This document shows, one piece after another, positions 13,174 through 31,835 of a stretch of DNA of 64,000 nucleotides. The stretch comes from Sulfurimonas sp. HSL3-2 (GTDB lineage Bacteria > Campylobacterota > Campylobacteria > Campylobacterales > Sulfurimonadaceae): contig NZ_CP147917.1 of NCBI RefSeq assembly GCF_039645965.1, positions 1,302,001 to 1,366,000 of the forward strand, in the 5' to 3' direction. The notes under the pieces were generated by a model. The model was not told where the DNA came from, searched no databases, and worked only from the letters and a program-made list of their open reading frames with translations. The number at the start of each line of letters is the position of its first letter. Position 1 is the first letter of the stretch. The position numbers were made by a program, and so were the translations under genes.

Positions 13174-13563
13174 CTATCTAGCCAGATAATCTCTCCAGCC
13201 TCCGTATTTCGTGATCTCCTCTGCGCCCAAAAGAGCATTGTTCTCACATAAAAACCCGTAAACACTGCTTCCGTCTTCTAAAAAAACAGTCCCGATACAA
13301 AGCGGCGATGCGATCTGGATCATAAATGCACCGAAGTTTTCCAAAGGCATCTCCCATACTTCAAGCTCCAATGATGCATCGCTTGTCTCATCACGGATCA
13401 TTCCGGGACGAGGCGGTACTTTTTCAGGCACGTTGTAAAGGCGGTAACCTTTGGCTGTCAATGTCTTTTTTTCAAGACGGGCATCCAGCTCGGTCAACTG
13501 ATGGTTAAGCGGCAGTCCGCTCATATGTGCGCCGCATACGGCGATCTTGATAGTTTTAGACAT
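13174..13563 (-). CDS. Allophanate hydrolase, separate C-terminal domain protein
   Basis: A ~129-residue protein matching the C-terminal, gamma-glutamyl-cyclotransferase-like domain of allophanate hydrolase (AtzF/DUR2): it opens IKIAVCGAHMSGLPLNHQL and ends with the GFLCENNALLGAEEITKYGGWRDYL segment. In most bacteria this domain is fused to the amidase, where it assists hydrolysis of the decarboxylated intermediate. Here it is encoded separately, with its ATG (13563) overlapping the amidase stop by eight bases; AGGGG five bases before the ATG favours it over the GTG at 13566. Last gene of the guanidine operon. Confidence 0.82.
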   Translation of the reverse strand: MSKTIKIAVCGAHMSGLPLNHQLTELDARLEKKTLTAKGYRLYNVPEKVPPRPGMIRDETSDASLELEVWEMPLENFGAFMIQIASPLCIGTVFLEDGSSVYGFLCENNALLGAEEITKYGGWRDYLAR

Positions 13564-14908
13564 CACTGCCCCTTTGCATATAATTTTCCCCTATCTGTAA
13601 CAGTTTTCTATCTTCAAAAGCCTCTGCAAACAGTGTAATACCAAACGGCAGACCGTTTTTTCTAAAACCGGCAGGAACCGCATAAGCCGAGAAGTCCAGA
13701 AGATTCATAAAGTTTGTATAGTATCCGAGGTTAGAATTCAGCTGTATCGGATCGGCGTTTACTTCATCTATCGTATAGATAGTCCCCGTCGTCGGAGTCA
13801 ATGCAAAATCGATGTCTTCCATCACGATATCCGCTTTACGTCTGTAGGCTTTTAGCTTGTACTCTGCATTAAAGTAATCCTCCGCACTCTTACTTTTTCC
13901 CGACTCAATGATCGTACGAGTGACATCTATAAGACTTTGGGGAGAGTTTTCTATCATATCCTTTACGGCTACGTAACGTTCAGCCACCCAAGGTCCGTAG
14001 TAAAGCAGGTTTGCCGCTTCAAGCATAGGCGAAAAATCGGTCTCGACCGCGGTTCCGCCCATCTCTTCAAATCTTTGAACCGCTTTATAAAAAAGCTCCT
14101 CTGCTTCAACGTCACCGAAAAATTTCAGCTGATCGGCTCTTGGAACGGCAAAACGAAAGCTTGAAGGCACACTTTTTTGCATCTCAGGCATCTTACGGCT
14201 GTATGGATCGCCTTCATCAAAAGAAGCCGCGACGTCAAACACCTTTTGAGCATCCTCAGTGCTTTTTGCAAAGATTGAGATACAGTCTAGACTTCTACAT
14301 GCAGGCACTACACCCGATGTACTGAGCACTCCTTTAGAGGGTTTGAGCCCTACAAGGTTGTTAAAAGCAGCCGGTACGCGTCCTGATCCCGCAGTGTCCG
14401 TTCCAAGTGAGAATGCTGCCATCTCTAAAGCGACGCTTACCGCACTTCCCGAACTCGAACCGCCGGAGATATACTTAGGGTCGATGCTGTTTTGACAAGC
14501 CCCAAAAGGAGAACGTGTCCCTACAAGTCCCGTCGCAAACTGATCAAGAGTCGTCTTTCCTACAGGAATAGCACCCGCTTTTATGAGAGCCTCTACGGCA
14601 AAAGCCGATCTTTCAGGCATATAACTGTAATCAAGACACCCTGCCGTTGTCGGTATACCAGCAAGGTCGATATTGTCCTTAATGGCAAAAGGGATCCCGT
14701 AAAGAGGCAATGAAGAGGGTTCGCACGCTTCAAGTCTTTGAAGGTATGGTTCAAGTTCATCGTCACTTAGTATATGTATCCAGATAGGATTAGCGCTGTG
14801 TTGTTCTATACGCTTTTTTATCTGTGCCATCAACTCTCTTGGAGTAAGTGTTTTATTTATATATGATTTTTTTAGATCAGAGATATTCATTTGTTTTCCT
14901 TTAGTCAA
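13556..14908 (-). CDS. atzF: Allophanate hydrolase, amidase domain
   Basis: A 450-residue amidase-signature enzyme. The Ser-cisSer-Lys triad is visible: lysine in FAIKDNIDLAGIPTTAG, cis-serine in GGSSSGSAVSVA and nucleophile serine in GTDTAGSGRVPAA. It cleaves allophanate to CO2 and ammonia, the last step of guanidine (or urea carboxylase) nitrogen release. Compared with the usual ~600-residue allophanate hydrolase it lacks the C-terminal domain, which is the next gene. Position at the end of the carboxylase operon supports allophanate over other amides. The start is at MTKGKQMN; an internal ATG six codons later is an alternative. Confidence 0.88.
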   Translation of the reverse strand: MTKGKQMNISDLKKSYINKTLTPRELMAQIKKRIEQHSANPIWIHILSDDELEPYLQRLEACEPSSLPLYGIPFAIKDNIDLAGIPTTAGCLDYSYMPERSAFAVEALIKAGAIPVGKTTLDQFATGLVGTRSPFGACQNSIDPKYISGGSSSGSAVSVALEMAAFSLGTDTAGSGRVPAAFNNLVGLKPSKGVLSTSGVVPACRSLDCISIFAKSTEDAQKVFDVAASFDEGDPYSRKMPEMQKSVPSSFRFAVPRADQLKFFGDVEAEELFYKAVQRFEEMGGTAVETDFSPMLEAANLLYYGPWVAERYVAVKDMIENSPQSLIDVTRTIIESGKSKSAEDYFNAEYKLKAYRRKADIVMEDIDFALTPTTGTIYTIDEVNADPIQLNSNLGYYTNFMNLLDFSAYAVPAGFRKNGLPFGITLFAEAFEDRKLLQIGENYMQRGSDV

Positions 14909-15788
14909 TAGTTGTTAGAGGTATTTCGTCATCTTTTGTACGAAACGCTTCGATAAAAGCCGCCATCATAATAAGCGCGCCGCCCGTCCATTCGACGTAC
15001 GTCATCGTCTCACCCGCGATCAATGTCGCCGAGATAACCGCAGTGATAAGTTCCAAGATAATAATGATCGATGAACGCCCTGCTTCCATATGCGTCACTC
15101 CCCACTGAGAGCCTATATTTGCTAAAAGCAGCCAGAAAAGTGCATACATCACTAGCATAAGCCATGCATTTTCGCCGATGCCTAAAGGAAACTGTTCTAT
15201 GCCTGCAAGTAAGAACATCCCCGCAAGAGCAAAACAGCCAAAGAACATACTGCCTATTTTCGATCCGACCGGTACGGCTTGAACTGCACGAAAAAGCAGG
15301 TTGTTCATAGCAAAGAAAAGACCCGATGCCAAAGCGATAAGGTCGATCCATGACGGCGGAGAATCGAGTACGTCAAAACCACCCAGAATCAAGAAAGCTC
15401 CGCTTATAGCCAAGAAAACACCCAGATAACGCCAACGGTCTATCTCCTCTTTTAAAAAGAAGCGTCCTCCCGCTACTCCCCATACAGGCAGCAGGTAAAA
15501 AAGCACCATCACACGGATCACTTCACCGTTGATGAGAGCATAAGTAAAAGCAAGGTTCGCCCCGCCGCCAAAAAGTGCGATCAAAAGCATTATCCTTTTA
15601 TGCCCTTTCCATAAAGAGAACTGTTTAAGCAGCAGCGGAGTCAATGCAAGAGCCAGCATACCGTAAGCTAAAAAGATAAGTCCGATCCCGTCAATACCCA
15701 TCTCGTTTATAGCTTTAAGCGGCAGCCATGTAAGACCCCACAGTACAGAGGCTCCAAGCAGTACAAAAACAGGAAGATGCGCTCTCAT
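14901..15788 (-). CDS. EamA/DMT-family transporter
   Basis: A 295-residue inner-membrane protein with about ten hydrophobic helices in two EamA repeats. It begins with LLGASVLWGLTWLPLKAINE, the usual first-helix pattern of the drug/metabolite transporter superfamily. Its last bases overlap the next gene (amidase) by eight, and its ATG overlaps the stop of the TIM-barrel gene by four, so it belongs to the guanidine operon. The substrate is unknown; a metabolite or cation exporter related to guanidine breakdown is an inference from position only. Confidence 0.8.
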   Translation of the reverse strand: MRAHLPVFVLLGASVLWGLTWLPLKAINEMGIDGIGLIFLAYGMLALALTPLLLKQFSLWKGHKRIMLLIALFGGGANLAFTYALINGEVIRVMVLFYLLPVWGVAGGRFFLKEEIDRWRYLGVFLAISGAFLILGGFDVLDSPPSWIDLIALASGLFFAMNNLLFRAVQAVPVGSKIGSMFFGCFALAGMFLLAGIEQFPLGIGENAWLMLVMYALFWLLLANIGSQWGVTHMEAGRSSIIIILELITAVISATLIAGETMTYVEWTGGALIMMAAFIEAFRTKDDEIPLTTID

Positions 15789-16639
15789 AATAGTCCTTTT
15801 TTTTCAGCGTAAGTATTGAAATGTCTCATCTCAGTCTCTGCCATCCAGCAGTTGATCTCCCATAGATCGGCGATCGGGGCATTCGTAAAAGGGAGAGTAT
15901 GCAGATATCCGTCAGGTCCGAATTCCGGTGTCATCGTTGTGATCTGCATCCCTTTTACATTTTGCGCATCCCAAACGATCTCCCATATCTCTTGATGAGA
16001 AAGTAAAGCCTCTTTGTATTCAGGTGCTCCGGGATGAGGCACTTGAGGACCCTGTGCATAACCCACACGGGAATGGATATGGTGCACGTTTGCTGCGATA
16101 GCTTTCATAGTATCGAGTTCCGTAGTCATCAGACGTTCGCAGACCACGCACCAGTGGCTCATATCGAGTGTCAGTTTGATCTCAGGGATCGCATCTACTA
16201 TACTTTTTGTCATCCAGGGAGTAAACAAAGATCGGCTGCGGTGCGTCTCAAAAGAGATCTCTATATTATACTTTTTTGCCAGCTCCATAGAGCTTTTAAA
16301 AAACTCTATGCTCTGCTCTTGGCTCCATGCATCACATCCGCCTATGCAGGTCATAAAACGAGGGTTTAGTTCCAAAGAGTTCTTTATAGCCTCTTCGACA
16401 TCGTTGATATGCCCCTGCAAAGTATGATGACGTGAGGGGACATAGTCGCCTCCCGTCACGATCTCGCCTATGAAAGCGAGATCATACTTCTCTAGACATT
16501 CTTTCCAACGTGCTTTCTCTTCCGACACTTGGGGCACTTTTCCTTCGATCCCTTCAAAACCTGCTTCTTTTACCTCTTTACAGGCAGTTTCAAAGTCTCC
16601 CGTAAATCCCCACATGGTCTTAAAATTCTCTACTTTCAT
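15785..16639 (-). CDS. Sugar phosphate isomerase/epimerase-like TIM-barrel protein
   Basis: A 284-residue protein of the xylose isomerase-like TIM-barrel family (AP endonuclease 2 fold). It has likely metal ligands in ISFETHRSR, LTLDMSHWCVV and HIHSRVGYAQGPQVPHP, and an early GFEGIEGKVP segment typical of the family. The reaction is unknown. It lies directly downstream of the carboxylase (11-bp gap) and is translationally coupled to the EamA transporter, so it should act on something made in or entering this pathway. It is not one of the standard guanidine-degradation enzymes. Confidence 0.7.
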   Translation of the reverse strand: MKVENFKTMWGFTGDFETACKEVKEAGFEGIEGKVPQVSEEKARWKECLEKYDLAFIGEIVTGGDYVPSRHHTLQGHINDVEEAIKNSLELNPRFMTCIGGCDAWSQEQSIEFFKSSMELAKKYNIEISFETHRSRSLFTPWMTKSIVDAIPEIKLTLDMSHWCVVCERLMTTELDTMKAIAANVHHIHSRVGYAQGPQVPHPGAPEYKEALLSHQEIWEIVWDAQNVKGMQITTMTPEFGPDGYLHTLPFTNAPIADLWEINCWMAETEMRHFNTYAEKKGLL

Positions 16640-16650
16640 CTTCTCTTCTT

Positions 16651-19600
16651 TTACAAAGGCTCGATAACAAACAGCATCTTGCCTGCTTGAATATTTTCGC
16701 CTTCATGACAAAGGACCTGTGTGATCTTTCCGTGCTCAGGTGCTTCGATATCGACTTCCATCTTCATCGATTCCGCGATCGCAAGAACTTCACCCTCTTC
16801 TACCACATCACCGAGCTTACACATCACTTTCCACAGGCTTCCCTGAACAGGAGACTCGACTGCCTCGGCATTCTCACCGATCTCGATATGCTCCATATTC
16901 TGTTTTTCAACATCTGCGCTCTCAGTCCTGAAGTTAGCAAGACCCGTGCGTTCCCACATCTGGCGCTCCTCTTCAAAAGCGTCCTGCTGTGTCTTTTTAA
17001 ATGTCTGGATCGAATCGTCGTTTTGCTCTAAGAACTCTTTATACGCTTTAAGACTGAACGTCGTTTCCTCGATTTTGAGGTTAAAACGCCCTCTTGGAAA
17101 ATCTTCACGCATCTGATGAAGTTCGTCTGAGCTGACCTCATAGAACTTGATCTGATCAAAGAAATTTAAAAGCCATGGTTTACCCGCACTAAAATCTTTT
17201 GTCTGACGGTAACGGTTCCACATCTGTACCGTACGTCCGACGAACTGGTAACCTCCAGGTCCTTCCATACCGTAGACACACATGTATGCCCCGCCGATTC
17301 CTACGGCGTTTTCCGGCGTCCATGTACGTGCAGGATTATATTTTGTCGTTACAAGACGGTGACGAGGGTCAAGCGGTGTCGCAACAGGAGCACCAAGATA
17401 GACATCTCCAAGCCCCATTACAAGATAGTTTGCTCCAAAGACGATCTTTTTGACCTCTTCTATGCTACCCAGTCCATTGATACGTCTGATGAACTCGATG
17501 TTGCTAGGACACCACGGTGCATCAGGACGGACAGTTCTCATATACTTGTCGATCGCTATACGTGTCGACTCATCATCCCATGAAAGCGGTAGATGCACGA
17601 TACGTGCAGGGACCTCGATATCATCGACTGAAGGAAGTGTGAGCTCTATCTCTTTTAATCTCTCGATGAGTGCCGCACGGTCACATACTCTAGGTTCGAA
17701 ATGGATCTGTAAAGAGCGGATGCCCGGTGTTATATCCGTAACACCTTCTATATCTGCCTCTTTCAATGCTTCCATCAATACATGCACGCGAAAACGCAAA
17801 CTGATATCGAGTTCCATCTCACCGTATTCGACTAGAAGATTGCTGTCACCCGATTGACGAACGACGATAGCAGGAAGATCTTTTTCCCCCTCATCGCTGT
17901 AAAGGATAGGCGAACCTATCGGCTTAGGTGCTAAGAAAACTGCTTCATCATAGCTTTTGAGTCCATTGATTGCATCATCTTGTGCTTTGATCATCTCTTG
18001 CGCTGTCTCATGTTCCACAGGAACGAATTTCACTCTGTCGCCCGCACGAAGCTGACCCATTTTCCACAGTTCCGCATTGATTATCGTCACCGGGCACACA
18101 AAACCACCAAGGCTCGGACCGTCAGGTCCAAGGATCACAGGCATATCTCCCGTAAAGTCCACTGCACCGATAGCATATGCGTTATCATGAATGTTTGAAG
18201 GGTGAAGTCCCGCCTCGCCTCCAGATGTTCTCGCCCACTCAGGTTTTGGACCGATGAGACGGATACCCGTTCTGTTTGAGTTGTAATGGATCTCCCACTC
18301 AGTCTCAAAGAATGTCTTGATGTCGTTATCGGTAAAAAAGTCAGGAGCACCGTGAGGTCCGTAAAGTACCCCTATCTCCCAACTGTTCTTAAACTCTTTG
18401 TGAGGGATCACCACTTTGTCTGCCGCTTCACCTTTTATGAGACTGCCGATATGCAGTACGTCACCCGATATTAACGTACGTCCTGCATGCCCGCCGAACT
18501 GTCCGAGTGTAAACGTCGAACGGCTTCCCAGATACTCAGGCACATCAAAACCGCCGCGAACCGCAAGGTATGTTCTAAACCCTTGTGCATGGACTTTTTT
18601 AAGTTTAAGCGTACTGCCTGCTTTCACATGTACGGCTTCGTTCATAGCGATCGTCTCGCCCTCTAGGGAAGCATCTATCTTTGCACCGCATAGAGCGATA
18701 ACAGTATCTGAATTAAAACGAAGTGTCGGTCCTGCAATAGCGATCTCTAAGCCCGCAGCCGCTTCATCATTTCCTACGATGCGGTTGGCATAACGGAAAC
18801 TGAAGTTGTCAAATGGCCCTGAAGGCGGTACACCGATATCCCAAAACCCTGTACGTCCCGGGAAATCCTGTACAGTCGTCTGCGTACCCGGACGAAGAAC
18901 ATCTATACTGCTTGTAGAAAACTCAAAACTGTTCAGATATTTTGTCGTCTGCTGTGCGTTTTTAAACACTTCCGATTTTACGATAGCACCCAGATAACGC
19001 AGGTTTGTCTCTATACCGTCTATTGCCGTGTTGTCTATCGCCTCGGCTATCTTTACAAGTGCTTCCTTGCGGTCATCTGCTTTGATGATAAGTTTTGCGA
19101 TCATCGGATCGTAAAATGCAGAGACATTAAGTCCCGTCTCGATGAATGTGTCGCATCTGATACCCTCTGCAAACTTCACATTAGTCAGTACGCCTGAACT
19201 CGGCTGAAAGTTTTTAGACGGGTCTTCTGCATAGATACGTACCTGTATAGAGTGCCCTTTTGGTGCATGGACATACTCGTAAAGTGCCGGATTTTCTCCA
19301 TACGCCTGAGTGATCATCCACTCGACAAGATCGACACCAGTGACCTCTTCGGTGATACCGTGTTCGACCTGAAGGCGTGTGTTTACTTCAAGAAAATAGA
19401 ACTCGTCAGTAGTCGTGTCATAGACAAACTCTACCGTTCCGGCTGAAAGATAAGCCACAGATGATGTAAGAGCGACAGCCGCTGCATACAACGCTTCTCT
19501 GGTCTCATCCGATATTCCCGGAGCAGGAGTCTCTTCGATCACTTTTTGGTTACGGCGCTGAACGGAACAGTCTCTGTCACCCAAAGCTGCTATGAAGCCT

Positions 19601-20250
19601 TTACCGTCTCCAAATACCTGTACTTCGATATGGCGAGCTAATGCGACATATTTTTCTAAGAACATCCCTCCGTCTGAGAAGTTATTCTCACTCAGACGTT
19701 TAACCGACTCATATGCACTGCATAGTTCAGTTTCATCATAACACAGCTGCATACCGATACCGCCGCCGCCAGCCGTACTTTTTAGCATAACCGGATAACC
19801 GATACGTGTCGCCTCTTTTTTTGCTTCTTCAAGGTCTGCAAGGATTGAAGAACCAGGTAGGAGGGGAACATTGTTTTGCTCAGCGAGTGCACGTGCCGTA
19901 TGTTTAAGACCAAACTGCTTCATATGTTCCGTACTCGGCCCGATAAATCTGATGCCCGCTGTTTCACACTCCTGTGCGAACGCTGCATTTTCACTTAAAA
20001 AACCATATCCGGGATGGATCGCCTCTGCACCGCTCTCTTTAGCGACCTCAAGGATCTTTTTCGTATCTAGATAACTCTCACTTGCAACGCCGTGACCTAT
20101 GAAATATGCCTCATCGGCAAGGCTTACATGTAATGAATCTGCATCTGCAGCCGTATAAACAGCGACAGAGCTGATACCCATCTTTCTTAGAGTACGTATA
20201 ACACGGCAAGCTATCTCACCACGATTGGCAATTAGTACTTTTGTAAACAT
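16651..20250 (-). CDS. Biotin-dependent guanidine carboxylase (urea carboxylase family)
   Basis: A 1199-residue biotin enzyme. Domain order: biotin carboxylase (~1-450, with [20 protein letters not shown] and the ATP-grasp lid), then a KipA/KipI-like carboxyltransferase pair (~460-1040, starting [21 protein letters not shown]), then a C-terminal biotin carboxyl carrier domain with biotinyl lysine in ESMKME. This layout belongs to the urea carboxylase family. Two facts argue for guanidine as the real substrate: the operon is headed by a guanidine-I riboswitch, and it encodes paired DUF1989 proteins known to act as carboxyguanidine deiminase. ATP-dependent carboxylation would give carboxyguanidine. 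The substrate-defining residues were not checked. A 93-bp gap with a hairpin precedes it. Confidence 0.88.
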
Positions 20251-20296
20251 TTTTTGTCCTTAGAATTATGTTTGCGGGCCGTCCCGATTATTTACA

Positions 20297-20318
20297 TCTC
20301 ACAAGTCGTCTTGTGAGA
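20297..20318 (-). other. Intercistronic hairpin upstream of the carboxylase gene
   Basis: A perfect 9-bp stem (TCTCACAAG / CTTGTGAGA) with a four-base loop sits in the 93-bp gap between the MBL-fold gene and the carboxylase, the largest gap within the operon. On the transcribed minus strand it is not followed by a T-run, so it is unlikely to be a strong terminator. It may be an mRNA processing or stabilising element that sets carboxylase expression apart from the upstream genes. Confidence 0.45.
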
Positions 20319-20343: not shown

Positions 20344-21126
20344 TTATGAAAAAAACTTTGGAAAACAGTTTTTTGACTCAAAATATTTCATATCATGGTT
20401 GGGCCAGATCTCTGCACCCGTCCGATATGCAAGCTCTTTGAGCTTACGTATGCTTTCTATCGCCATCGCTTCGTTATCCTGCCAACACAGCCCCGGTGCG
20501 ATCTCTTTTTCAAGGTTCTCGCTCAGGTCTGCGGCATCACCGGCAAGCAGGATCGGTTTTCCTTTTGGGAGTTCTATTAACATAGACATATGTCCTGCCG
20601 TATGACCCGGCGTCTCTATCGCACGGACACCATCAATAAGGTCATACTCTTTATCATAGATACGCCAGTTGATCGGACAGTCCAGATCTTCTGCAAAATA
20701 TGCTTCATCTGCCAGCGCTCTGGCCGCTTCAAGCTCTTTTTTATGCACATGCACCTCTGCATGACACATCTCGCAAACTCCGCCCGCATGATCAAAATGC
20801 AGATGGCCGCAAAAGACCACATCCACATCCTCTTTTAAAAGACCAAGCTCGGCGAGTCTGTTTGGCAGACGCTGTTCTTCACTCATCTGAGGAGGTCCGA
20901 AAGGAAATCCTTCATGTTCGTAGAAGGCTTTTCGTTTTTTCTCATCTGCGATCTTATTATAATCACACCCCACATCGTAAAGAATACGTCCGTTAGACGT
21001 CTCTATCAGATACGCCAGTATCGGTGCATCTATGATGATACCTTTACCGTGACCGCGGGTAGAAAGTGTCTTCTCATAACGATGTGTCCCGGTCAAGATA
21101 GGCCAAAATTTTTTTACTTGTGTCAT
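20344..21126 (-). CDS. MBL-fold hydrolase, AHL-lactonase-like
   Basis: A 260-residue metallo-beta-lactamase-fold protein. The dinuclear zinc motif HLHFDH (HxHxDH) lies at about 106-111, a second histidine in ETPGHTAGHMS, the bridging aspartate in LLAGDAADL and a late histidine in WPNHDMKYF. The overall pattern resembles N-acyl-homoserine lactonases of the AttM/AhlD type. The role in a guanidine operon is not obvious; hydrolysis of a cyclic or amide intermediate is as likely as quorum quenching. It lies 21 bp after the DUF1989 gene and before the carboxylase. Confidence 0.8.
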   Translation of the reverse strand: MTQVKKFWPILTGTHRYEKTLSTRGHGKGIIIDAPILAYLIETSNGRILYDVGCDYNKIADEKKRKAFYEHEGFPFGPPQMSEEQRLPNRLAELGLLKEDVDVVFCGHLHFDHAGGVCEMCHAEVHVHKKELEAARALADEAYFAEDLDCPINWRIYDKEYDLIDGVRAIETPGHTAGHMSMLIELPKGKPILLAGDAADLSENLEKEIAPGLCWQDNEAMAIESIRKLKELAYRTGAEIWPNHDMKYFESKNCFPKFFS

Positions 21127-21147: not shown

Positions 21148-21768
21148 TTATGCATCCCAGACGATCATCTGAATAGGCGTCGGATTGTATGCATTACACG
21201 GATTGTTGAGCTGCGGACAGTTTGATACCAGTACCAAAGTGTCCATCTCTGCTTTCATCTCCACATAATCACCCGGCTTTGAGATACCGTCTACGATCGC
21301 CAAGTGACCGTTTTCCTCGACTGGTACGTTCATAAAGAAGTTGATGTTGTTTGTTAGATCACGCGGATCCATCTCCAACTCACCTATCTCATAAAGGTAG
21401 TTGTCTCTACAGCTGTGCATATATTTTTTATCATGACCGAAACGTACCGTATTGCTCTCAGCACTACAGTGACCGCCTAAAGTATCGTGGTTCCCGCATG
21501 TGTCTTCTGTGATCTCCATCATAATGTTATCATCACTAGAGATAAGTTTCGTGCCTTTTGTTACAAAGATACTGCCTTGTTCTCTTACCGTATCGGTAGC
21601 AGAGTAACGCTCTTCATGATCATTTGCATTATAAAAAAGCGTATCGACGGCCTGACATCCTTCAAGATCGACGATGCGAAGTGTCTGGCCTTTTTTTACG
21701 ACATAAGACCATGGCACGCCTGCCGCTATTTTTTCATTATAAATTGCATTTGAAATATCTTTTTTCAT
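21148..21768 (-). CDS. DUF1989 protein UAAP2-type, carboxyguanidine deiminase subunit (cysteine-bearing)
   Basis: A ~206-residue DUF1989 (urea amidolyase-associated) protein. Related paired proteins, CgdA and CgdB, form carboxyguanidine deiminase, which converts carboxyguanidine to allophanate and ammonia. This subunit keeps a DTCGNHDTLGGHCS segment whose cysteines and histidine look like the metal or catalytic site of the family. The start is placed at ATG 21768, where AAGGAG lies six bases upstream; longer reading-frame versions run into the preceding gene. It follows its paralogue by 10 bp, as expected for a heterodimer. Confidence 0.85.
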   Translation of the reverse strand: MKKDISNAIYNEKIAAGVPWSYVVKKGQTLRIVDLEGCQAVDTLFYNANDHEERYSATDTVREQGSIFVTKGTKLISSDDNIMMEITEDTCGNHDTLGGHCSAESNTVRFGHDKKYMHSCRDNYLYEIGELEMDPRDLTNNINFFMNVPVEENGHLAIVDGISKPGDYVEMKAEMDTLVLVSNCPQLNNPCNAYNPTPIQMIVWDA

Positions 21769-21778
21769 CTTCTTCTCC

Positions 21779-22516
21779 TTAAGCAAAGTATCTTGCATTG
21801 TTTTCAAAGCCGCGTTTAGCTTGAGGTGTAAAGTTCATACAAAAGTCATCTGCCGTGACCGGTTCTGCATTATAGATAGTCAACTGGACCGGACTCGGAT
21901 CATACTCACCTGACTCCATGACATGCGGCGTGTTTGAGAGTACTAAAAGGACGTTCATCTCGGCACGAAGTTCTATGTAGCTTCCCGGCATCGGACGTTT
22001 TGGTGAAAGTTCAAGCTTACTGCCCTCTTTTACGTCTACTTTTCTAAACAGGTTCAGACAAGGAATGATGTCACGTTTACCCATACCGTATTTTCCAAGT
22101 TCTACAAGAAAGTTTTCTCTGTCACTTTTGTAATAACGGTTACGGATATCGTTGAAACTTCCCTTTCCGAAGTTCTTTTCGACTATGCGAGGATTACTCA
22201 TCCCGGCGATCGCATCAAAAAGACCGTCAGTCGTATCTTCAGTGATCGAAAACAGGATATGTCCCAATTCCGAATAAAGTACTTTTCCTTTCCCGAAGAA
22301 TGCGTTGTACTGTATCTTTACCGTATCAGCAGAGTTAAAACGTTCTGCGATATTGTCGGCATTGTAAAAAAGTGCAGAGAGTGAGCCAAGCCCGTCTTCT
22401 GTGCTTATACGTATTTTTTGACCGCGTTTAATGATCTTTGACCATTTTCCGCCTCCCGGAAGAACTTCATCAAGAACGATAGATTCGGGTTTTAAATTTA
22501 TATGTTCAGTTATCAT
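21779..22516 (-). CDS. DUF1989 protein UAAP1-type, carboxyguanidine deiminase subunit (degenerate site)
   Basis: A ~245-residue paralogue of the next gene, sharing the order of conserved segments (IKRGQKIRISTEDG, LFYNADNIAERFNSADTV, a final pair of beta strands). In the place where the partner has DTCGNHDTLGGHCS, this protein reads EDTTDGLFDAIAGMS, losing the cysteines and the histidine. It is therefore probably the non-catalytic or structural half of the CgdA/CgdB-type carboxyguanidine deiminase. The ATG at 22516 overlaps the ABC ATPase stop by 11 bases; a longer start at 22549 would add 11 residues and overlap by 44 bases. Confidence 0.83.
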   Translation of the reverse strand: MITEHINLKPESIVLDEVLPGGGKWSKIIKRGQKIRISTEDGLGSLSALFYNADNIAERFNSADTVKIQYNAFFGKGKVLYSELGHILFSITEDTTDGLFDAIAGMSNPRIVEKNFGKGSFNDIRNRYYKSDRENFLVELGKYGMGKRDIIPCLNLFRKVDVKEGSKLELSPKRPMPGSYIELRAEMNVLLVLSNTPHVMESGEYDPSPVQLTIYNAEPVTADDFCMNFTPQAKRGFENNARYFA

Positions 22517-23291
22517 AATTATTAGTTTCCTTTTTTCTAGATTTATCAACTTTTGTTAAAATTGCCCCTTTTTCATTGCCTACCGGAATATCGTAGGTAA
22601 TGCGGGCACCGTAAGCATTCGGCGCTTGCTCGTCATATCTCACCTTGTCAAAGACAAGCAGACGGCTTCCCAGATAGAAACTCTCATGCAGGTCATGGGT
22701 GACCATGATGACTGTCAGATTGTTCTTCTTCCAGAGATCCAGGATCAGCTGATGCATATCTGCACGTATCCCCGGATCAAGTGCCCCGAAAGGTTCATCC
22801 AGCAACAGAATCTTCGGTTTGATTACCAAAGACTGTGCAATGGAAAGACGTTGCTGCATCCCGCCTGAAAGTTCACTCGGATACTTATGAGCTGCATCGC
22901 CAAGACCGACAGATTCGAGCATCTGCATCGCTTTTGCTTTTGCTTCTTTACGTTTTTTTCCAAAAAGTCTTCCAAAAAATTTAGACTCTTTTAATTCCAT
23001 AGACAACAGTACGTTTCCAAGTACACTCAAGTGTTCAAAGACGGAATAACGCTGAAATACGATCCCTCTTTCAATACTAGGCTCATCCGGAAACGGTTTA
23101 CCGTCAAGTAAAAAAGTTCCTCTTGTCGGTGTTTCCTGCCCAAGCAGCATCTTTAAAAAAGTCGTCTTACCGCAGCCCGAAGGTCCTACCAGTGTACAAA
23201 ACTCACCCTCTTCTATATTAAGGTTCAGCTTTTCCAAAACGACATTGTCTCCATACTCTTTCCAGAGATTTTTTATGGTTATAAGACTCAT
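22506..23291 (-). CDS. ABC transporter ATPase, guanidine/urea-carboxylase-associated importer
   Basis: A 261-residue NitT/TauT-class ABC ATPase. Walker A is GPSGCGKTT, the Q-loop lies in [14 protein letters not shown], the signature is [10 protein letters not shown] and Walker B is [12 protein letters not shown]. It energises the importer formed with the permease and binding protein encoded just upstream. ATPases of this subgroup recur beside urea/guanidine carboxylase genes, so the cargo is probably guanidine; this is inferred from the riboswitch and neighbours. It overlaps the permease stop by four bases. Confidence 0.88.
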
Positions 23292-24112
23292 GCGTTATCC
23301 TTTCCTGCGCTGTACCAAGGAAAAAGCTTATATGTCAGCTTTTTCAGTAGATAATCAAACAGGAATGCAAGGAATGTGATCCATGCAACATACGGCAAAA
23401 TTACATCCATAGACATATAACGGCGTACCAAAAAGATACGGTATCCAAGCCCTTCTGTCGCAGAGATCGCTTCAGCAGAGATAAGGAATATCCATGCTGT
23501 TCCAAGCGTCAGACGCACCGAATCAAGAAGCCTAGGAAAGATCTGAGGCAATATGACACGGACCACGATACTCCATGAAGAACCGCCTAAGGTCTGAGCT
23601 TTTATAAGCTGCTCAGCCGGTATCTCAGCCACACGCTGCTGCAGATCACGCACGATAAGCGGTGTGACACCGATAACGATAAGAGCGACTTTTGCTATCT
23701 CACCCATACCAAAAACTATGAACAGTATGGGTAGTATCGCCATAGGCGGCACCATAGAAAAGGCCGCGACAAACGGTGAAAAACCTGCTCTTACAAAGGG
23801 AATAAATCCTAAAGGAATACCGATAAGCATTGCCAAGACAGCACTTATGAGGATTCCGAGCCCAAGACGATGAAGTGAAGCAGATGTATCTTCTATGAAA
23901 AGAATCTCACCTGTACGCTTACTCGGTGTTAAAGCCATTCTATCGATAGCTTCTGAAAAGCTTGCCATTGAAGGCAGAAGCTTATCATTTGGGTTCTCTG
24001 CGAGACGCAGGTCGGATGCCACGATATAGAACATTCCGGCAATAAAGAACGGCAATAATCCTAGAAAAAAGGCCGTTACTTTTGACGGCCTAAGGTTCAT
24101 AAATCGTTTCAT
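23288..24112 (-). CDS. ABC transporter permease, guanidine/urea-carboxylase-associated importer
   Basis: A 274-residue inner-membrane permease with about six helices and a binding-protein-dependent transport signature around AEQLIKAQTLGGSSWSIVVRVILPQIFPRLLDS (EAA-type loop; key residues A, G and LP). It is of the SsuC/TauC/NrtB type. Together with the ATPase and periplasmic binding protein it would import the operon's substrate, most likely guanidine or guanidinium. The gap to the upstream binding-protein gene is only nine bases. Confidence 0.87.
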   Translation of the reverse strand: MKRFMNLRPSKVTAFFLGLLPFFIAGMFYIVASDLRLAENPNDKLLPSMASFSEAIDRMALTPSKRTGEILFIEDTSASLHRLGLGILISAVLAMLIGIPLGFIPFVRAGFSPFVAAFSMVPPMAILPILFIVFGMGEIAKVALIVIGVTPLIVRDLQQRVAEIPAEQLIKAQTLGGSSWSIVVRVILPQIFPRLLDSVRLTLGTAWIFLISAEAISATEGLGYRIFLVRRYMSMDVILPYVAWITFLAFLFDYLLKKLTYKLFPWYSAGKDNA

Positions 24113-24121
24113 AGGAGTACC

Positions 24122-25189
24122 TTACAGTTTCCCTTCAGCAGCCATCTTTACATAAGTATCAATGAAACGAAGTTTAATGTTTTTTGGATCACCGAATGTT
24201 TTACCGTTTGGAAATTCCATACCGATAAATCCTGCATCCGGTGCACCTTCACCTAAAAGACCGTGATTAAATGAGAACTCGCTCACTTTTTTCATTGTGT
24301 TTGGCAATGCACTACTGTCTGCAAACTCTACCGCTTCTTTTGGATCATAGAACATCTTTGTAGATTTTAGCTGGCTTTTATAACCCGCAAGGTCCGTACC
24401 TGATGCTTCAGCCATAAATGTAAGAGCTTTTGTATCGCCTTTTTTCATTAATGCCATTACTTCAAACCATGCTCCGGTCAATGCTTTAGCAAGTTTTGGA
24501 TTATCTTTAAGCGTTTCAGTATTAAGAACTAACATATCGATGATCTCACCCGGGATTTTGCTTGAATCAAAAACAAGATTTGCATCTTTTTTTGTCATGA
24601 TCTCGCTCAATTGAGGATTCCATGGAACTAATGCAGTTACATCGTTAGAAGAGTAAGCTGCTACGATGTCGGCATCTGAAGTGTTTACTACTTTTACATC
24701 ACGCTCACTAAGACCGACAGTCTCTAACCCGCGTGCTAAAAGATAATGTGAAACAGAAAGTTCGACAAGGTTAACGTTCTGGCCTTTGATATCAGCTAAG
24801 TTCTTTTTGCCTTTAAGGATGATACCGTCGTTTCCGTTTGAAAAGTCACCCATAATAAGTGCCGTTGAGTCAACACCGCCGGCAGCAGGAATCGTCAATG
24901 CATCCATATTTGTCATAAGACAACCGTCAAATTTACCTGCCGTATACTGGTTGATAGATTCAATATAGTCATTGACCTGTACAAGATCGATTTGGATTCC
25001 GTATTTTTTAGCCCATTTATCGACAATGCCTTTTTGCTGAGCGTAATCCCACGGCATCCAACCGACATAGATAGTCCAAGAGACTGTAAACTTGTCTTTT
25101 ACTTCTGCCATAAGTGATGATGCACTTAGACCCATGACCAATGTTGCGGCAACTAAGAGTTTTGATGTGGATTGAAAGATATTTTTCAT
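24122..25189 (-). CDS. ABC transporter substrate-binding protein, putative guanidine-binding
   Basis: A 355-residue periplasmic binding protein of the NitT/TauT (NMT1-like) class with a clear signal peptide (KNIFQSTSKLLVAATLVMGLSASSLMA). The mature part has YVGWMPWDYAQQKGIVDKWA and a DGCLMTNMDALTIPAAGG segment that lines the ligand site in this family. It is the first gene of the operon and lies just behind the guanidine-I riboswitch. I placed the start at ATG 25189, which has AGGAG six bases upstream; the same frame is open to 25303, but that extension lies inside the riboswitch. Guanidine as ligand is inferred from regulation. Confidence 0.87.
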   Translation of the reverse strand: MKNIFQSTSKLLVAATLVMGLSASSLMAEVKDKFTVSWTIYVGWMPWDYAQQKGIVDKWAKKYGIQIDLVQVNDYIESINQYTAGKFDGCLMTNMDALTIPAAGGVDSTALIMGDFSNGNDGIILKGKKNLADIKGQNVNLVELSVSHYLLARGLETVGLSERDVKVVNTSDADIVAAYSSNDVTALVPWNPQLSEIMTKKDANLVFDSSKIPGEIIDMLVLNTETLKDNPKLAKALTGAWFEVMALMKKGDTKALTFMAEASGTDLAGYKSQLKSTKMFYDPKEAVEFADSSALPNTMKKVSEFSFNHGLLGEGAPDAGFIGMEFPNGKTFGDPKNIKLRFIDTYVKMAAEGKL

Positions 25190-25210
25190 TTGAGACTCCT
25201 GAATAGGTTT

Positions 25211-25360
25211 AATTAAAACACGGCAAGAGGTTGTAACCTCCCGGGCTTTTATCCCTCCGTGTAACCTCCTATTCAAGAGGTCGACAACTCTCGGACCTGA
25301 CACAGAATATTCTGCCGGAACCCTAGTCGTCTGTTATTGCATTAGAGGTCTTTCAACCTC
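25211..25360 (-). promoter_or_regulatory. Guanidine-I (ykkC) riboswitch with transcription attenuator
   Basis: The minus-strand leader contains the conserved blocks of the ykkC class in order: CTAGGGTTCCG, GGTCCGAGAG, then ACACGG(A)GGGATAAAAGCCCGGGAG in two adjoining parts. P1 is closed by GAGGTTG (25360-25354) with CAACCTC (25233-25227). The aptamer block ACACGG (25262-25257) is also complementary to CCGTGT (25223-25218), which runs straight into TTTT. This gives a terminator that forms only when ACACGG is not held in the aptamer. Guanidine binding should thus allow transcription of the importer and degradation operon. The binding-protein gene starts 22 bases further on. Confidence 0.95.
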
Positions 25361-25510: not shown

Positions 25511-25539
25511 AACTCCCTTTTCTAAAAAAAAAGGGAGTT
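25511..25539 (-). terminator. Putative terminator after the porin gene
   Basis: An inverted repeat, AACTCCCTTTT and AAAAGGGAGTT, lies 18 bases after the porin stop. The A-run in the plus strand becomes a T-run in the loop on the minus strand; the tail after the stem is A/T-rich but has no long T-run, so strength is uncertain. It lies between the porin and the promoter of the guanidine operon and would keep the two transcripts apart. Confidence 0.6.
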
Positions 25540-25556: not shown

Positions 25557-26825
25557 TTAGAAGTTGTAAGTAAGATATACTTGAAATGAAGTCAGATCTT
25601 CATTATCTCCAATTGATGTTCCACCTTTATAACCGAATGAATCATGAATAAGAGCAACAGTAGAATCCAATGGGCCAAAAGACTTACTTGCAGTAAATGC
25701 AATTTCATCTACACTGTTATTAGTCCCTGCTGTGATCCCTTTAGGAGCAATATCACATGTATAGTATCCTAAGAAAAAGTCAATATCAGCAAGAGTTGTC
25801 TCTGCAGAAACAGCGAGTGTATCAGCACCTGTTTGGCTTACAGTACCGTACCACCACCACATCTCAGTATAAAGTTGAGACGCAGCACCTGCTGCCTGAC
25901 CACGTGTTGCCAAGTTTGCAACGCCAAGTGTTCCTTCATCGTCTACAGAAGAGTATGCAACTTTAAGTGTTCCGACATCTTTCATCGAATAACCAAGCAT
26001 AACGCCATAAGCAGAATCATTTTTAGCACCAGTTGCATCAGAGTCAATATTTACATATTGTGCACCGGCAAGAACACCGTCCATATCTAAATCAGCTTGT
26101 AGCCAATATGCTTTTGCAACACGAGTTACATCGTAGTACCATGCTTTTGCCGTTAACGGTGCAAAAGAGTTATTGATCACACCTACTGCATACGCACCAT
26201 CTGTTGCGAATGTATTGAATTTTCCATTGACAGAAGTAACATTTCCGATATTAAGACTGCTATTGACATCATCACCTGTGCCGTTTGATGTACCGATCCA
26301 TGCACCGATTACTTGAGTATCAGGAATATCTTCGTTTATTACTACTGCTGCTTCAAAAGTATTTGTAGTAATATTCCATGTCTCAGTAAATGCAAGTGGC
26401 GTATCAAGTGATTGACGTCCTACTTTTGCAGTAGTCTTACCGAAAGTTCCTGCGATCCATGCTTCAGAGAAAAATGATGCATCCTCTACTTGAGCACCAT
26501 AAGAACTACCATTAGCAGTTGCAGTGTGAGCACCAGACCATACACCAGATACAAGGTTGTTTTCTAAGCCAAGTGTAGAAACTCCCTGAAATGTTGCACC
26601 GGCAGAAACACCTTCTGTAAGATCAGCTGTTGCCCCTAGAGTTAATCCTGCATCAGCATAACTTGCATCTTTATGGAACATATCCGCATTTGATACACCT
26701 TTAGTATTTACAGCATCACTACCATAAAAAAGACTTGCCGTCCCGTTTACTTTTACATTATCGATAGCATATACATTTGCCCCTAATAGTAGCGCTGCCG
26801 CCAAACTCATTTTTGCTAATTTCAT
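25557..26825 (-). CDS. Campylobacterota-type outer-membrane porin under guanidine riboswitch control
   Basis: A 422-residue protein with a signal peptide (AKMSLAAALLLGANVYA) and a long series of alternating-hydrophobic beta strands ending in VYLTYNF, a C-terminal aromatic typical of outer-membrane barrels. It resembles the Opr-type major porins of Sulfurimonas-like bacteria. Its mRNA leader holds a complete guanidine-I riboswitch with a terminator, so the porin should be made only when guanidine is present. An AGGAG lies seven bases before the ATG. A role in letting guanidinium cross the outer membrane is a strong inference, not shown by the protein itself. Confidence 0.87.
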   Translation of the reverse strand: MKLAKMSLAAALLLGANVYAIDNVKVNGTASLFYGSDAVNTKGVSNADMFHKDASYADAGLTLGATADLTEGVSAGATFQGVSTLGLENNLVSGVWSGAHTATANGSSYGAQVEDASFFSEAWIAGTFGKTTAKVGRQSLDTPLAFTETWNITTNTFEAAVVINEDIPDTQVIGAWIGTSNGTGDDVNSSLNIGNVTSVNGKFNTFATDGAYAVGVINNSFAPLTAKAWYYDVTRVAKAYWLQADLDMDGVLAGAQYVNIDSDATGAKNDSAYGVMLGYSMKDVGTLKVAYSSVDDEGTLGVANLATRGQAAGAASQLYTEMWWWYGTVSQTGADTLAVSAETTLADIDFFLGYYTCDIAPKGITAGTNNSVDEIAFTASKSFGPLDSTVALIHDSFGYKGGTSIGDNEDLTSFQVYLTYNF

Positions 26826-26850
26826 ACTGTCTCCTGGACTAAATTAATTT

Positions 26851-26994
26851 TAAAACACGGCAAGAGGTTTTTAGTCTCCCGGGCTTTTATCCCTCCGTGT
26901 AACCTTTTATTTAAGGTCGATAACTCTCGGTCCAGTCACAAATACTTTGCCGGAACCCTAGTAATCTATTAATGTTATAAGATTTTACAACCTC
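26851..26994 (-). promoter_or_regulatory. Second guanidine-I (ykkC) riboswitch with attenuator, upstream of the porin
   Basis: The conserved blocks seen in the first riboswitch recur on the minus strand: CTAGGGTTCCGGC, GGACCGAGAG and ACACGGAGGGATAAAAGCCC followed by GGGAG. P1 is formed by GAGGTT (26994-26989) with AACCTC (26869-26864). ACACGG (26900-26895) can instead pair with CCGTGT (26860-26855), followed by TTTT, giving a terminator. The mechanism is the same as at the neighbouring operon but the spacer helices differ in sequence, so this is not a very recent copy. The porin ATG is 26 bases downstream. Confidence 0.95.
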
Positions 26995-27022
26995 ATAGCT
27001 CAAGTCATGTTTTATCACAAGG

Positions 27023-27076
27023 ATTATATATAACGTAGATGATAAATAATACATATTAATGATTAAATTTTAATCA
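27023..27076 (-). promoter_or_regulatory. Promoter and nitrogen-operator palindrome of the guanidine porin
   Basis: The perfect palindrome TGATTAAATTTTAATCA occurs at 27060-27076 (centre 27068). The minus-strand -10 TATAAT begins 40 bases further on (27028-27023). The predicted transcription start near 27016 puts the riboswitch P1 about 22 bases into the RNA. Identical operator spacing to the guanidine operon promoter implies shared control by one activator. Confidence 0.75.
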
Positions 27077-27220
27077 TATTGTAAATTTATATCTAAATTT
27101 AAAATTTAACAGGATTTACAATAAACTATATATAGTAAATAAGAAGTTTAGATAAATGAAAGGTACAGTTGTTTGTCTACAACGCAATCTTTATAGGATA
27201 ACGCTGTAGGTAAGGAGATG

Positions 27221-27472: not shown

Positions 27473-29110
27473 CTAATCAAGATTATAGTATATGATCAGG
27501 ATTATATTTAACAAAAACATAACAGTAAAAGCAGTTCTATAAAAGAGTAACGGAGAACGTTCTATAATAGAACTGTTTTTTGGAAAGAAAGGCTTAACAT
27601 TTTGAGGGAACTGCAGTTCATACATCATCTCGGAATAATGCTGATATCTTCTCTCAGGCTCTATAGCGATAGCACGAAGTACAACACTGTCAAGCCAAGC
27701 CGGAATATTTTTATTGTAAATACTCGGTTTTTTGGCTTCTTTAAATATCGGATTTGAGAAAGGTTCTATCTCTCCATAGGGATATTTTTTTGTCAATGCC
27801 ATATAAAGTGTTACCCCTATAGCAAAAATCTCCGTTGTCTCACTTATAGCCTCATCTTTGAATCTTTGAGGAGAAAGATAGCTCGGCGTTCCGGCTCTTG
27901 AACTTGTCGAAAATATCTCAGTGATACTTCCGAAATCTATCATCTGAAAGCCCAGCTCACTGCCGTTTACTACGACCATGATGTTTTCAGGCTTGATATC
28001 ACCGTGTACAAGATCATATTTTAAAAGATACTGTGACATATCTAAAAGCATCTTTGAAAGCTTTATGGCATCGTCTATACTGATATTTTTTACGGAGATA
28101 TGGCTTTTAAGGTCTTCACCCTCAAGAAACTGCATTATATAGTAGCGGTATGTTCTCTTTTTTGGGATGACCGCTTTAGGAAAAAACTCCGATCGTAACC
28201 TCTTTGCATTCCACGCTTCCTTTACAAAAAGATCTAAAAACATCTCGTTATCGACAGCCTCAAGAGGAGGAAACTTTATGACATACTGTTTGGATTTTTT
28301 TGAACATATCCAAGTTCTGTCGTTTTGGATAAGAGACCTCTCTAATATATATCCGTCTATATCCTGACCTTTTTTCAGACTTTGCGGGATCAAAAGCTCC
28401 TGCTGTTTTAGTATCTCAAACTCATCTGCTTGTATTATGTCCAAGACTACGGCTGTCGTATCATCGGGAAGATGGTGCTGAGTGATCTTGCTCGCCTTTT
28501 TTACCAGACCGTGTGCACCAAATAGTATGCCGCTTTCCAAGCGGCTTGTCTCCATTATATTATAAAGGCCGTCACTGCACAACAGTATCTTGTCATCTTC
28601 TTGAATGATGTTCTCAAAATAGTAAGGTTCTGCCTCCTCTTCTATGCCTATCGCTTTTGTAAGTACATTTTCATACCCTTTTTCCTGCATAACATGGTCT
28701 TGTGAAAGCTGATTGATGCGCTTGTCCCGGTAAAGATAAATACGGCTGTCGCCTACATTGGCTCCATAGAGACGGTTTCCCTCTATGACCACTAAAGCCA
28801 GAGTCGTGACAAGTTCCGGGCGTTCATACTGGATGATCGATTCTTTATAAAGGATGGAATTGATGGATTTTATAAATGTAATGATAGATTTTTCGATGCT
28901 CCAGCTCTTTGGACGCATCTTGAAGTTGTTTATGAGATAGGAAGTGACCCTTGAAGCAGCCTGAGCTCCTTCTGCGGCACTTCCTACTCCGTCACAGACG
29001 ATCGCTACAGTAAGATCGCCTATGGTCTTTATATCATAAAAGTCATCACCGACGAGTTCTTTACCTTTAGCAAGTGTAAATCCTGAACTTTTTATGTTGG
29101 TCGATGACAT
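27473..29110 (-). CDS. Bifunctional PP2C phosphatase / Ser-Thr kinase fusion
   Basis: A 545-residue protein. Residues ~10-225 form a PP2C phosphatase with metal-site motifs VCDGVGSAAEG, GDSRIY, LLCSDGLYN and PDDTTAVV. Residues ~250-510 form a protein kinase with YVIKFPP (ATP lysine), LVHGDIKPENIM (catalytic loop, HGD instead of HRD), MIDFGS (metal aspartate) and GTPSYLSPQ. The glycine-rich loop is poor. A C-terminal hydrophobic helix (~520-541) anchors it to the membrane. Similar fusions recur beside assimilatory nitrate transporters in other proteobacteria. It lies 13 bp after the NarK-type gene, so it may adjust nitrate transport by phosphorylation; its target is unknown. Confidence 0.88.
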   Translation of the reverse strand: MSSTNIKSSGFTLAKGKELVGDDFYDIKTIGDLTVAIVCDGVGSAAEGAQAASRVTSYLINNFKMRPKSWSIEKSIITFIKSINSILYKESIIQYERPELVTTLALVVIEGNRLYGANVGDSRIYLYRDKRINQLSQDHVMQEKGYENVLTKAIGIEEEAEPYYFENIIQEDDKILLCSDGLYNIMETSRLESGILFGAHGLVKKASKITQHHLPDDTTAVVLDIIQADEFEILKQQELLIPQSLKKGQDIDGYILERSLIQNDRTWICSKKSKQYVIKFPPLEAVDNEMFLDLFVKEAWNAKRLRSEFFPKAVIPKKRTYRYYIMQFLEGEDLKSHISVKNISIDDAIKLSKMLLDMSQYLLKYDLVHGDIKPENIMVVVNGSELGFQMIDFGSITEIFSTSSRAGTPSYLSPQRFKDEAISETTEIFAIGVTLYMALTKKYPYGEIEPFSNPIFKEAKKPSIYNKNIPAWLDSVVLRAIAIEPERRYQHYSEMMYELQFPQNVKPFFPKNSSIIERSPLLFYRTAFTVMFLLNIILIIYYNLD

Positions 29111-29123
29111 CTTTTTCCTTGTA

Positions 29124-30404
29124 TTATATTCTACCGCCGGCTGTTACGCCCCATGTAGTTCTCCATCTTGTCTTGACAAGACTGATGCCGCTTAAAGCGA
29201 TGACTACCACTGCTGCAAATATCATAAAACCTGCAGCGTAACCGTCAAACGCTCCTTTGCTCCAGCCAAGAGTCTTGATGAGTGCCGTACCGCCAAGTCC
29301 GCCTGCAGCACCTATTATACCTGTCATTATACCAATATCTTTACCGAATCTCTGAGGGACAAGTTGAAAAACGGCACCGTTTGCCATTCCAAGATTTGCC
29401 ATGATCAAAAACAGGACTAATATAGCGACATAAAACGGCAACACAATATAAGCATTTATCATAGCCATAAGTGCGACAGTTCCGAAGAACAGATAAAGCG
29501 ACTTGATACCGCCCATCTTGTCTGCGATCGCTCCGCCTACCGGACGCAGTACCGCACCTGCAAATATACATAAAGCTCCAAAATATCCCGCGACCACTTT
29601 GACATTTCCCTCATCTAAAAAGTCAAGACCGAATGCACTCATATCAGCCTGATACGTGTTCATAAGATAAACTTTCATGTACCCTGCAAACCCGACAAAA
29701 CCGCCGAAACTCACTGCATAAAAAAGGTTGAACCACCAAGTGTCTTTGTCTTTTAAAAGTTTAAGATAATCTCCAAGTTTTTTAGGACGAGGCGTATATA
29801 CTTCCGCAGGTGCATCTTTTGCCATAAACATATATGCGATAAAGATGATGGTAGAAAGAACGCCGCCGACAAGAAAAACAGCTTCCCATCCCCAAAGTTC
29901 AGCGATCTTCGGAGCAAAGAGGAAGTCTATGACAACACCGATGTTGCCGGCTCCGGCAATCCCTAAAACGACTCCTTGAAGTTTTGGAGGATACCATTGA
30001 CCTGCTTGCGGCAGTGCCACGGCAAAAGAAGCACCTGCAAAACCAAGACCGAATGCAACAAGCAGAAGTTCATTATAAGTGATACCTACACCTCTAAAAT
30101 ATGCATAAAAAAGCACACCGATGACAACTGCCTGAGAGACAAGAGCTGTCGTTTTCGCTCCAAACTTATCGACACCAAAACCAAGAAGGATCCTTAAAAG
30201 TGCTCCTGCCAAGATAGGGATAGATAACAAAGTCGCTTTTTGTGAAGCACTCATGATAAATCCGCCAAGCGCTAACGCTTCACTTATCTCTGTTGAAAGT
30301 GGCCCTAACATAGTCCACACCATAAAACTAAAATCAAAATACAAAAATGCTGCCATAAGTGTCGGCCAGTGTCCTTGTCCTTTTAATGCTTTAAATCCTG
30401 CCAT
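29124..30404 (-). CDS. NarK/NasA-type nitrate/nitrite transporter (MFS)
   Basis: A 426-residue major facilitator protein with about twelve helices. Both nitrate signature regions are visible: GASFAVALPQAGQWYPPKLQG in the fifth-helix area and NLGMANGAVFQLVPQRFG in the second half, each glycine- and alanine-rich. Placement with siroheme synthase, nitrite reductase and nitrate reductase supports nitrate uptake for assimilation. It is the first gene of a two-gene operon with the PP2C-kinase gene and is divergent from the siroheme synthase gene, sharing one operator. Confidence 0.92.
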   Translation of the reverse strand: MAGFKALKGQGHWPTLMAAFLYFDFSFMVWTMLGPLSTEISEALALGGFIMSASQKATLLSIPILAGALLRILLGFGVDKFGAKTTALVSQAVVIGVLFYAYFRGVGITYNELLLVAFGLGFAGASFAVALPQAGQWYPPKLQGVVLGIAGAGNIGVVIDFLFAPKIAELWGWEAVFLVGGVLSTIIFIAYMFMAKDAPAEVYTPRPKKLGDYLKLLKDKDTWWFNLFYAVSFGGFVGFAGYMKVYLMNTYQADMSAFGLDFLDEGNVKVVAGYFGALCIFAGAVLRPVGGAIADKMGGIKSLYLFFGTVALMAMINAYIVLPFYVAILVLFLIMANLGMANGAVFQLVPQRFGKDIGIMTGIIGAAGGLGGTALIKTLGWSKGAFDGYAAGFMIFAAVVVIALSGISLVKTRWRTTWGVTAGGRI

Positions 30405-30453
30405 TTTGTTTTCCTTAAACTTAATTTTTCATTAACATTGTTCGAACATCAAA

Positions 30454-30545
30454 ATTATAACACTATAAAAACCCTAAATTACCCAGTCTATTGTTTAAAA
30501 TTTATACAACTTAATATTAATTTTACATTAAATTGATGTTACAAT
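30454..30545. promoter_or_regulatory. Divergent nitrogen-controlled promoters of the nitrate transporter and siroheme/nitrite reductase operons
   Basis: A near-perfect palindrome TGTTTAAAATTTATACA (30492-30508, centre 30500) lies in the 175-bp divergent region. On the minus strand a TATAAT box begins 41 bases away (30459-30454) for the transporter. On the plus strand a TACAAT box begins 40 bases away (30540-30545) for siroheme synthase. One operator therefore sits at the same distance from two divergent promoters, the geometry also seen at 37079. Confidence 0.7.
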
Positions 30546-30579
30546 TTTCCAACTAGATAAGTTAGTTGAGAGGAAAAAC

Positions 30580-31833: not shown

Positions 31834-31835
31834 AA

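Follow-up and report, generated by a model that had tools for sequence, protein, structure and literature searches.

A Sulfurimonas outer-membrane porin preceded by a putative Guanidine-I riboswitch of its own beside a guanidine operon

The window analysed here, a stretch of 64,000 nucleotides from Sulfurimonas sp. HSL3-2, carries a predicted outer-membrane porin gene with a Guanidine-I aptamer of its own in the leader, and directly downstream lies a tightly packed set of genes that by its content is a canonical guanidine operon. The aptamer and the operon are both of known kinds, and the porin appears to be a new type of target gene for this riboswitch class. To our knowledge, the described uptake of guanidine begins at the inner membrane, and the porin linkage suggests that guanidine induces a route across the outer membrane. 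Taken as a whole, it is quite probable that the porin belongs to a guanidine regulon, that its riboswitch acts as an ON switch by exchange of two alternative helices (T1 and P0), and that the pore feeds the importer.

The porin unit contains the following elements:

27023..27028, minus strand: inferred -10 element TATAAT, about 7 nt before GATAAAACATG
27006..27013, minus strand: AAAACATG, the 5' arm of P0, close to where the RNA is predicted to begin, pairing with 26859-26852
26874..26972, minus strand: Guanidine-I aptamer of the porin (RF00442)
26895..26900, minus strand: 5' arm of T1, ACACGG, within the aptamer, pairing with CCGTGT at 26860-26855
26852..26860, minus strand: CCGTGTTTT, the 3' arm shared by T1 and P0 as alternative partners
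26831..26835, minus strand: Shine-Dalgarno sequence AGGAG of the porin, 5 nt before the ATG at 26825
25557..26825, minus strand: porin gene (open reading frame of 422 aa), the guanidine-linked paralog
25511..25539, minus strand: terminator-like symmetric hairpin of 13 bp after the porin and before the operon (-15.1 kcal/mol)

With a TATAAT box ahead of it and a 13-bp hairpin behind, the porin has the look of a transcription unit of its own, composed of -10 box, aptamer, gene and strong hairpin and standing 361 bp ahead of the operon. A comparable spacing of the -10 element is found again in relatives. The stem of the hairpin at 25511-25539 is followed by no U-run.

The guanidine-I riboswitch that the original prediction placed in this leader is borne out by Rfam (cmscan): RF00442 (Guanidine-I, ykkC subtype 1) matches 26972-26874 on the minus strand with 86.7 bits (E = 4e-14; gathering score 63), and the match of 99 nt covers the full model from 1 to 107. 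A permissive search of 26780-27080 (E up to 5) found no family besides Guanidine-I (E = 1.9e-16); by the Rfam models, the leader belongs to none of the subtype 2 ykkC classes, whose ligands are different. The whole genome has exactly two RF00442 matches, one in the porin leader and the other in the operon leader (25337-25236). Among 27 aligned aptamers, the porin ones included, 50 columns are invariant, and the core positions are intact in every porin aptamer aligned. Control of the porin by its own Guanidine-I switch is well supported, while the aptamer is a putative binder of guanidine and the direction of the switch is presumably ON.

Downstream of the porin, the operon is arranged as follows:

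25236..25337, minus strand: second Guanidine-I aptamer, in the operon leader before the substrate-binding protein gene (RF00442, 93.5 bits)
24122..25195, minus strand: ABC substrate-binding protein (TIGR03427, 'putative urea'; 576.7 bits, cut-off 333.9)
23288..24112, minus strand: ABC permease (PF00528)
22506..23291, minus strand: ABC ATPase (PF00005)
21779..22513, minus strand: DUF1989 protein UAAP1 (TIGR03425; 280.2 bits, cut-off 205.95)
21148..21768, minus strand: DUF1989 protein UAAP2 (TIGR03424; 348.8 bits, cut-off 284.7)
20344..21126, minus strand: MBL-fold hydrolase, lactonase-like (PF00753), below all NCBIfam lactonase cut-offs
20275..20317, minus strand: Guanidine-II aptamer before the carboxylase gene (RF01068, 34.9 bits, cut-off 32)
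16651..20250, minus strand: guanidine carboxylase of the TIGR02712 family, 1199 aa (1933 bits, cut-off 1304)
15785..16639, minus strand: xylose isomerase-like TIM barrel (PF01261)
14901..15788, minus strand: EamA/DMT transporter (PF00892)
13556..14908, minus strand: allophanate hydrolase, amidase part (TIGR02713; 597 bits, cut-off 511)
13174..13566, minus strand: separate gene for the C-terminal domain of allophanate hydrolase (PF21986; 164 bits)

The two DUF1989 proteins together are likely the CgdA/CgdB pair (carboxyguanidine deiminase). In an alignment to 3va7, Asp698 and Asp949 of the carboxylase correspond to K. lactis positions 1330 and 1584; aspartates at both positions are the criteria for a guanidine carboxylase, and the one at 1330 marks it as against urea carboxylase (PMC11410670). 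Judged by these matches, the guanidine carboxylase pathway appears intact, with the CgdA/B-like pair, the carboxylase and the allophanate hydrolase over cut-off. Guanidine-II is matched in 22 of the 24 aptamer-bearing Campylobacterota genomes (above cut-off in 15), and two guanidine riboswitch classes per operon seem to be the rule in these Campylobacterota. The separate gene for the C-terminal domain of the allophanate hydrolase overlaps the amidase gene, and the same is seen in most related operons. Flanked by the DUF1989 pair and the MBL-fold gene is a gene of about 337 aa whose product has a fatty-acid-desaturase fold (PF00487; L036:9821-10834), and the operons of G190, G287, G396, G425 and G465 have a counterpart, recognised solely by its location and similar length. 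It is possibly an oxygenase for alkylguanidines, with the products of the MBL-fold and TIM-barrel genes as partners.

An importer, a full degradation pathway and an inducible pore together suggest a role of the porin in entry, and such an entry route is strengthened by the adjacency of the ABC importer and the guanidine carboxylase pathway; passage of guanidine itself through the porin is putative. The opposite direction, in which guanidine from an inner-membrane exporter such as the EamA protein leaves the periplasm through the porin, would accord with the EamA gene within the operon and with the exporters that Guanidine-I genes elsewhere often encode (PMC12186494). However, the operon has an importer with a substrate-binding protein and a complete degradation pathway, no SMR/Gdx gene was found among its genes, and the EamA gene is absent from the porin-bearing operons of G361, G389 and G448; we regard such an efflux role as very improbable.

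The linkage between riboswitch and porin was followed in samples of 397 Campylobacterota genomes and 228 genomes of the window's family, in which RF00442 is present in 24 and 25 genomes, respectively. A linked porin occurs in 14 of the 25 aptamer-bearing family genomes, eight times with its own Guanidine-I aptamer and six times without, and is known from 13 genomes besides that of the window. The porin after RF00442, for which relatives in Campylobacterota were searched, does recur: porins with their own aptamer are found in eight genomes of three genera, all belonging to one family. The linked porin takes three layouts, at the operon front, convergent at the far end, or as the last gene:

Front porin with its own aptamer: G000 and G367 (g1); G142, G281 and G507 (g2)
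Far-end porin with its own aptamer, convergent to the operon: G361, G389 and G448 (g5)
Front porin without an aptamer: G406 (g72) and G465 (g2)
Porin as the last gene, with no RNA match of its own: G190, G287, G304 and G359 (g6)

No porin was found near the operon in the fetched stretches of the other 11 family genomes, nor near the aptamers in those of all 12 genomes of the phylum sample outside the family, although a few of these stretches stop at contig ends; hence the pathway can do without the porin. A hidden aptamer was sought in the leaders of the g6 porins and of the unlinked G496 porin, with none detected. Among the 80 relatives kept from named genomes, aptamers occur in one contig only, apparently the same record as G367, indicating that the linkage is special to guanidine operons and is not a property of the porin family at large. 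The leader of the G465 front porin (L212:3207-3686), which has no aptamer, retains the P0 arms AAAACATGG and CCATGTTTT, and may represent a riboswitch in decay or no more than a simple hairpin.

In the leader tree, the five aptamers of front porins cluster together (95/97), while the g5 porin aptamers group with the g5 operon aptamers and are split from the front group at 100/100. The identity between porin and operon aptamers is 97-99% in g5 and 76-85% in g1/g2. The simple reading favoured by the trees is that the operon leader was duplicated onto a porin twice. However, gene conversion within g5 could be another way for the copies to become alike, which leaves two captures favoured and not proven; the g5 porin also differs in place and orientation, an independent argument for them. 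The front porins are one clade in the porin tree (96/92), apart from those of g5 and g6, and this clade also includes the unlinked G496 porin, whose genome has the operon, and a porin of Sulfurimonas SI060_bin9. The guanidine-linked label requires 5 changes on this tree against 11.3 expected by shuffling. A single origin of the linked porins is not rejected (AU p = 0.20; 10 rows), and separate capture therefore draws its support more from the aptamer tree and the layouts.

According to the mechanism that we propose, the porin would be a member of a guanidine-acquisition regulon with its own promoter, and its RNA would start with a Guanidine-I ON-switch aptamer. When guanidine is lacking, ACACGG would pair with the CCGTGT that precedes a short U-run, and little porin would be expressed; when guanidine is bound, the aptamer would retain ACACGG, the 5' end of the RNA would pair with the freed 3' arm (P0), and the porin would be made. 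Cells sensing guanidine would open more outer-membrane pores alongside the ABC importer and the carboxylase pathway, and the added pores would let entry of this scarce substrate into the periplasm keep pace with the importer.

Two partners are available to the 3' arm CCGTGT: ACACGG in the aptamer (T1) and, when the arm is extended to CGTGTTTT, the 5' end of the RNA (P0). Because ACACGG lies inside the aptamer, the T1 and aptamer folds exclude each other geometrically. In the nascent porin leader, the T1-forced fold has an approximate energy of -36.9 kcal/mol and the P0 fold one of -37.2, a gap of 0.3 kcal/mol as one would expect for a switch, and in the operon leader P0 is favoured over T1 by approximately 5.7 kcal/mol. 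The CCGTGT-TTTT terminator of the original prediction stays a candidate: it is present at 26860-26852, would exclude the aptamer and is near-isoenergetic with the alternative fold, but the T1 stem is imperfect in many leaders (9 of 30 have a perfect one), its 3' arm varies considerably among relatives, the U-run is only four long, and a search for T1 covariation across the leaders gave none, partly because the 5' arm is fixed by the aptamer. P0 does covary among 27 leaders, with 8 of its 16 pairs altered on both sides (27 cells), a level reached in none of 500 shuffles and by no slid version (at most 13 cells). T1 seems to be only a part of the mechanism, with P0 and, in operon leaders, an anti-Shine-Dalgarno helix covarying instead. 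The g5 leaders possess a GGGAG..CTCCC hairpin with a U-run that overlaps the 3' end of the aptamer and is apparently a better terminator than T1.

In 20 of the 24 operon leaders, 10-15 bases around the Shine-Dalgarno sequence can pair with the P2 strand, and this anti-Shine-Dalgarno helix has two pairs altered on both sides among the 27 leaders. In the operon leader of the window (25187-25337) it comprises 12 bp with the P2 strand of the aptamer, whereas in this porin's leader it is weak. When the aptamer is forced, the predicted accessibility of the Shine-Dalgarno sequence rises from a mean of 0.14 to 0.34 in operon leaders, from 0.57 to 0.77 in porin leaders, and from 0.75 to 0.84 in the leader of this porin. 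By these figures the operon leaders look translational, perhaps transcriptional too, and for the leader of this porin termination is the likelier means of control, if it is regulated at all. The Guanidine-I class is usually described as transcriptional, and the anti-Shine-Dalgarno helix of the operon leaders suggests translational control.

The weak helix and the high accessibility in both states would also fit a porin aptamer that is a non-functional leftover of the leader duplication, with the porin being constitutive, and so would the front porins of G406 and G465 that lack an aptamer. A remnant of this kind appears improbable to us, since the aptamer core is intact although porin and operon aptamers have diverged as far as they have in g1/g2, the porin aptamers still score 76-89 bits across genomes, and the g5 porin leaders retain their strong hairpin and U-run.

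Besides a signal-peptide-like start (judged by eye), the porin has a predicted beta-barrel fold with 18 long strands (AlphaFold; pLDDT 84.8, pTM 0.82), and the nearest solved folds are OprD/Occ porins and the C. jejuni MOMP (Foldseek, E down to 1e-17, TM 0.6-0.7). These share the predicted barrel fold at an identity of only about 10-16%. The porin matches no Pfam family and scores far below the NCBIfam cut-offs of the Opr porin models (NF033923, 42 against 150 bits; NF033922, 39.2 against 100 bits), and we therefore call it OprD/MOMP-like and not a member. A paralog about 50% identical is present in most of the family's genomes examined; it adjoins gap-pgk-tpiA-fabI in the four checked (G000, G162, G361 and G359) and is taken for a housekeeping porin, from which the guanidine-linked porins appear to be diverged paralogs. 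A charge signature of the linked porins was considered and rejected: the net charges are -25 for the window's porin against -18, but -32 against -29 to -33 in g6, and in g5 about -9 against -11 to -18 for the paralogs, so the linked porins are not distinct across genera.

Guanidinium is small enough for general porins, and a dedicated pore is not obligatory. The linked porin may accordingly be a general-purpose channel captured by the operon's riboswitch, which would raise the permeability to small nitrogen compounds with no preference for guanidine; such a channel would have the same regulation as the explanation preferred here and would differ in selectivity only. We give this a considerable chance, though somewhat short of even. 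The nearest paralogs being housekeeping porins, the linked porins having no charge signature, and a likely nitrate-assimilation cluster adjoining the porin in the window all agree with it. However, the linked porins stand in long-branched clades of their own, which implies divergence from the housekeeping copy, and in three genera the front clade goes with guanidine operons. At the other end, the linked porins could be guanidinium-selective channels that arose at least twice from the housekeeping porin in this one Campylobacterota family and came under the control of guanidine each time; the outer membrane would then be a step at which guanidine use is regulated. We think this rather unlikely. 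Our preferred explanation remains that of a porin in the guanidine regulon whose pore would feed the importer.

Compared with known Guanidine-I riboswitches (RF00442), the aptamer has the same sequence and structure, the same expected ON logic and the same linkage to guanidine importer and degradation genes, but the target here is an outer-membrane porin. In Raoultella/Klebsiella, Guanidine-I precedes the importer and carboxyguanidine deiminase genes, and Guanidine-II the carboxylase and allophanate hydrolase genes (PMC12186494). The operon in the window is split into the same Guanidine-I and Guanidine-II parts and differs by the added porin unit with its own Guanidine-I aptamer, by extra MBL-fold, TIM-barrel and EamA genes, and by the split allophanate hydrolase. 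Titles and abstracts searched for a link between guanidine/ykkC riboswitches and a porin or the outer membrane gave none, and neither porin nor outer membrane comes up in a review on riboswitches that were once orphans.

Two other systems are comparable in some respects. FmdC-type porins sit in amide/urea uptake clusters, where an ABC importer likewise takes up a small nitrogen compound; the likeness is one of gene placement, and cargo and control differ. The btuB gene encodes a TonB-dependent receptor that a cobalamin riboswitch turns OFF upon ligand binding. It shares with our case the riboswitch control of an outer-membrane transport protein, whereas the protein here is a passive porin and is predicted to be switched ON. 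A putatively guanidine-switched porin, probably captured separately in two lineages, suggests that flux across the outer membrane limits guanidine use in some bacteria, and it offers a clear case of a riboswitch class gaining a new type of target through leader duplication.

The region 27473-33749, which adjoins the porin, encodes a PP2C-kinase fusion and a nitrate/nitrite transporter of NarK type (below cut-off); it also holds two open reading frames that by eye are siroheme-synthase-like and nitrite/sulfite-reductase-like. It is probably a nitrate-assimilation cluster, and its place beside the porin implies that the region may be a nitrogen island.
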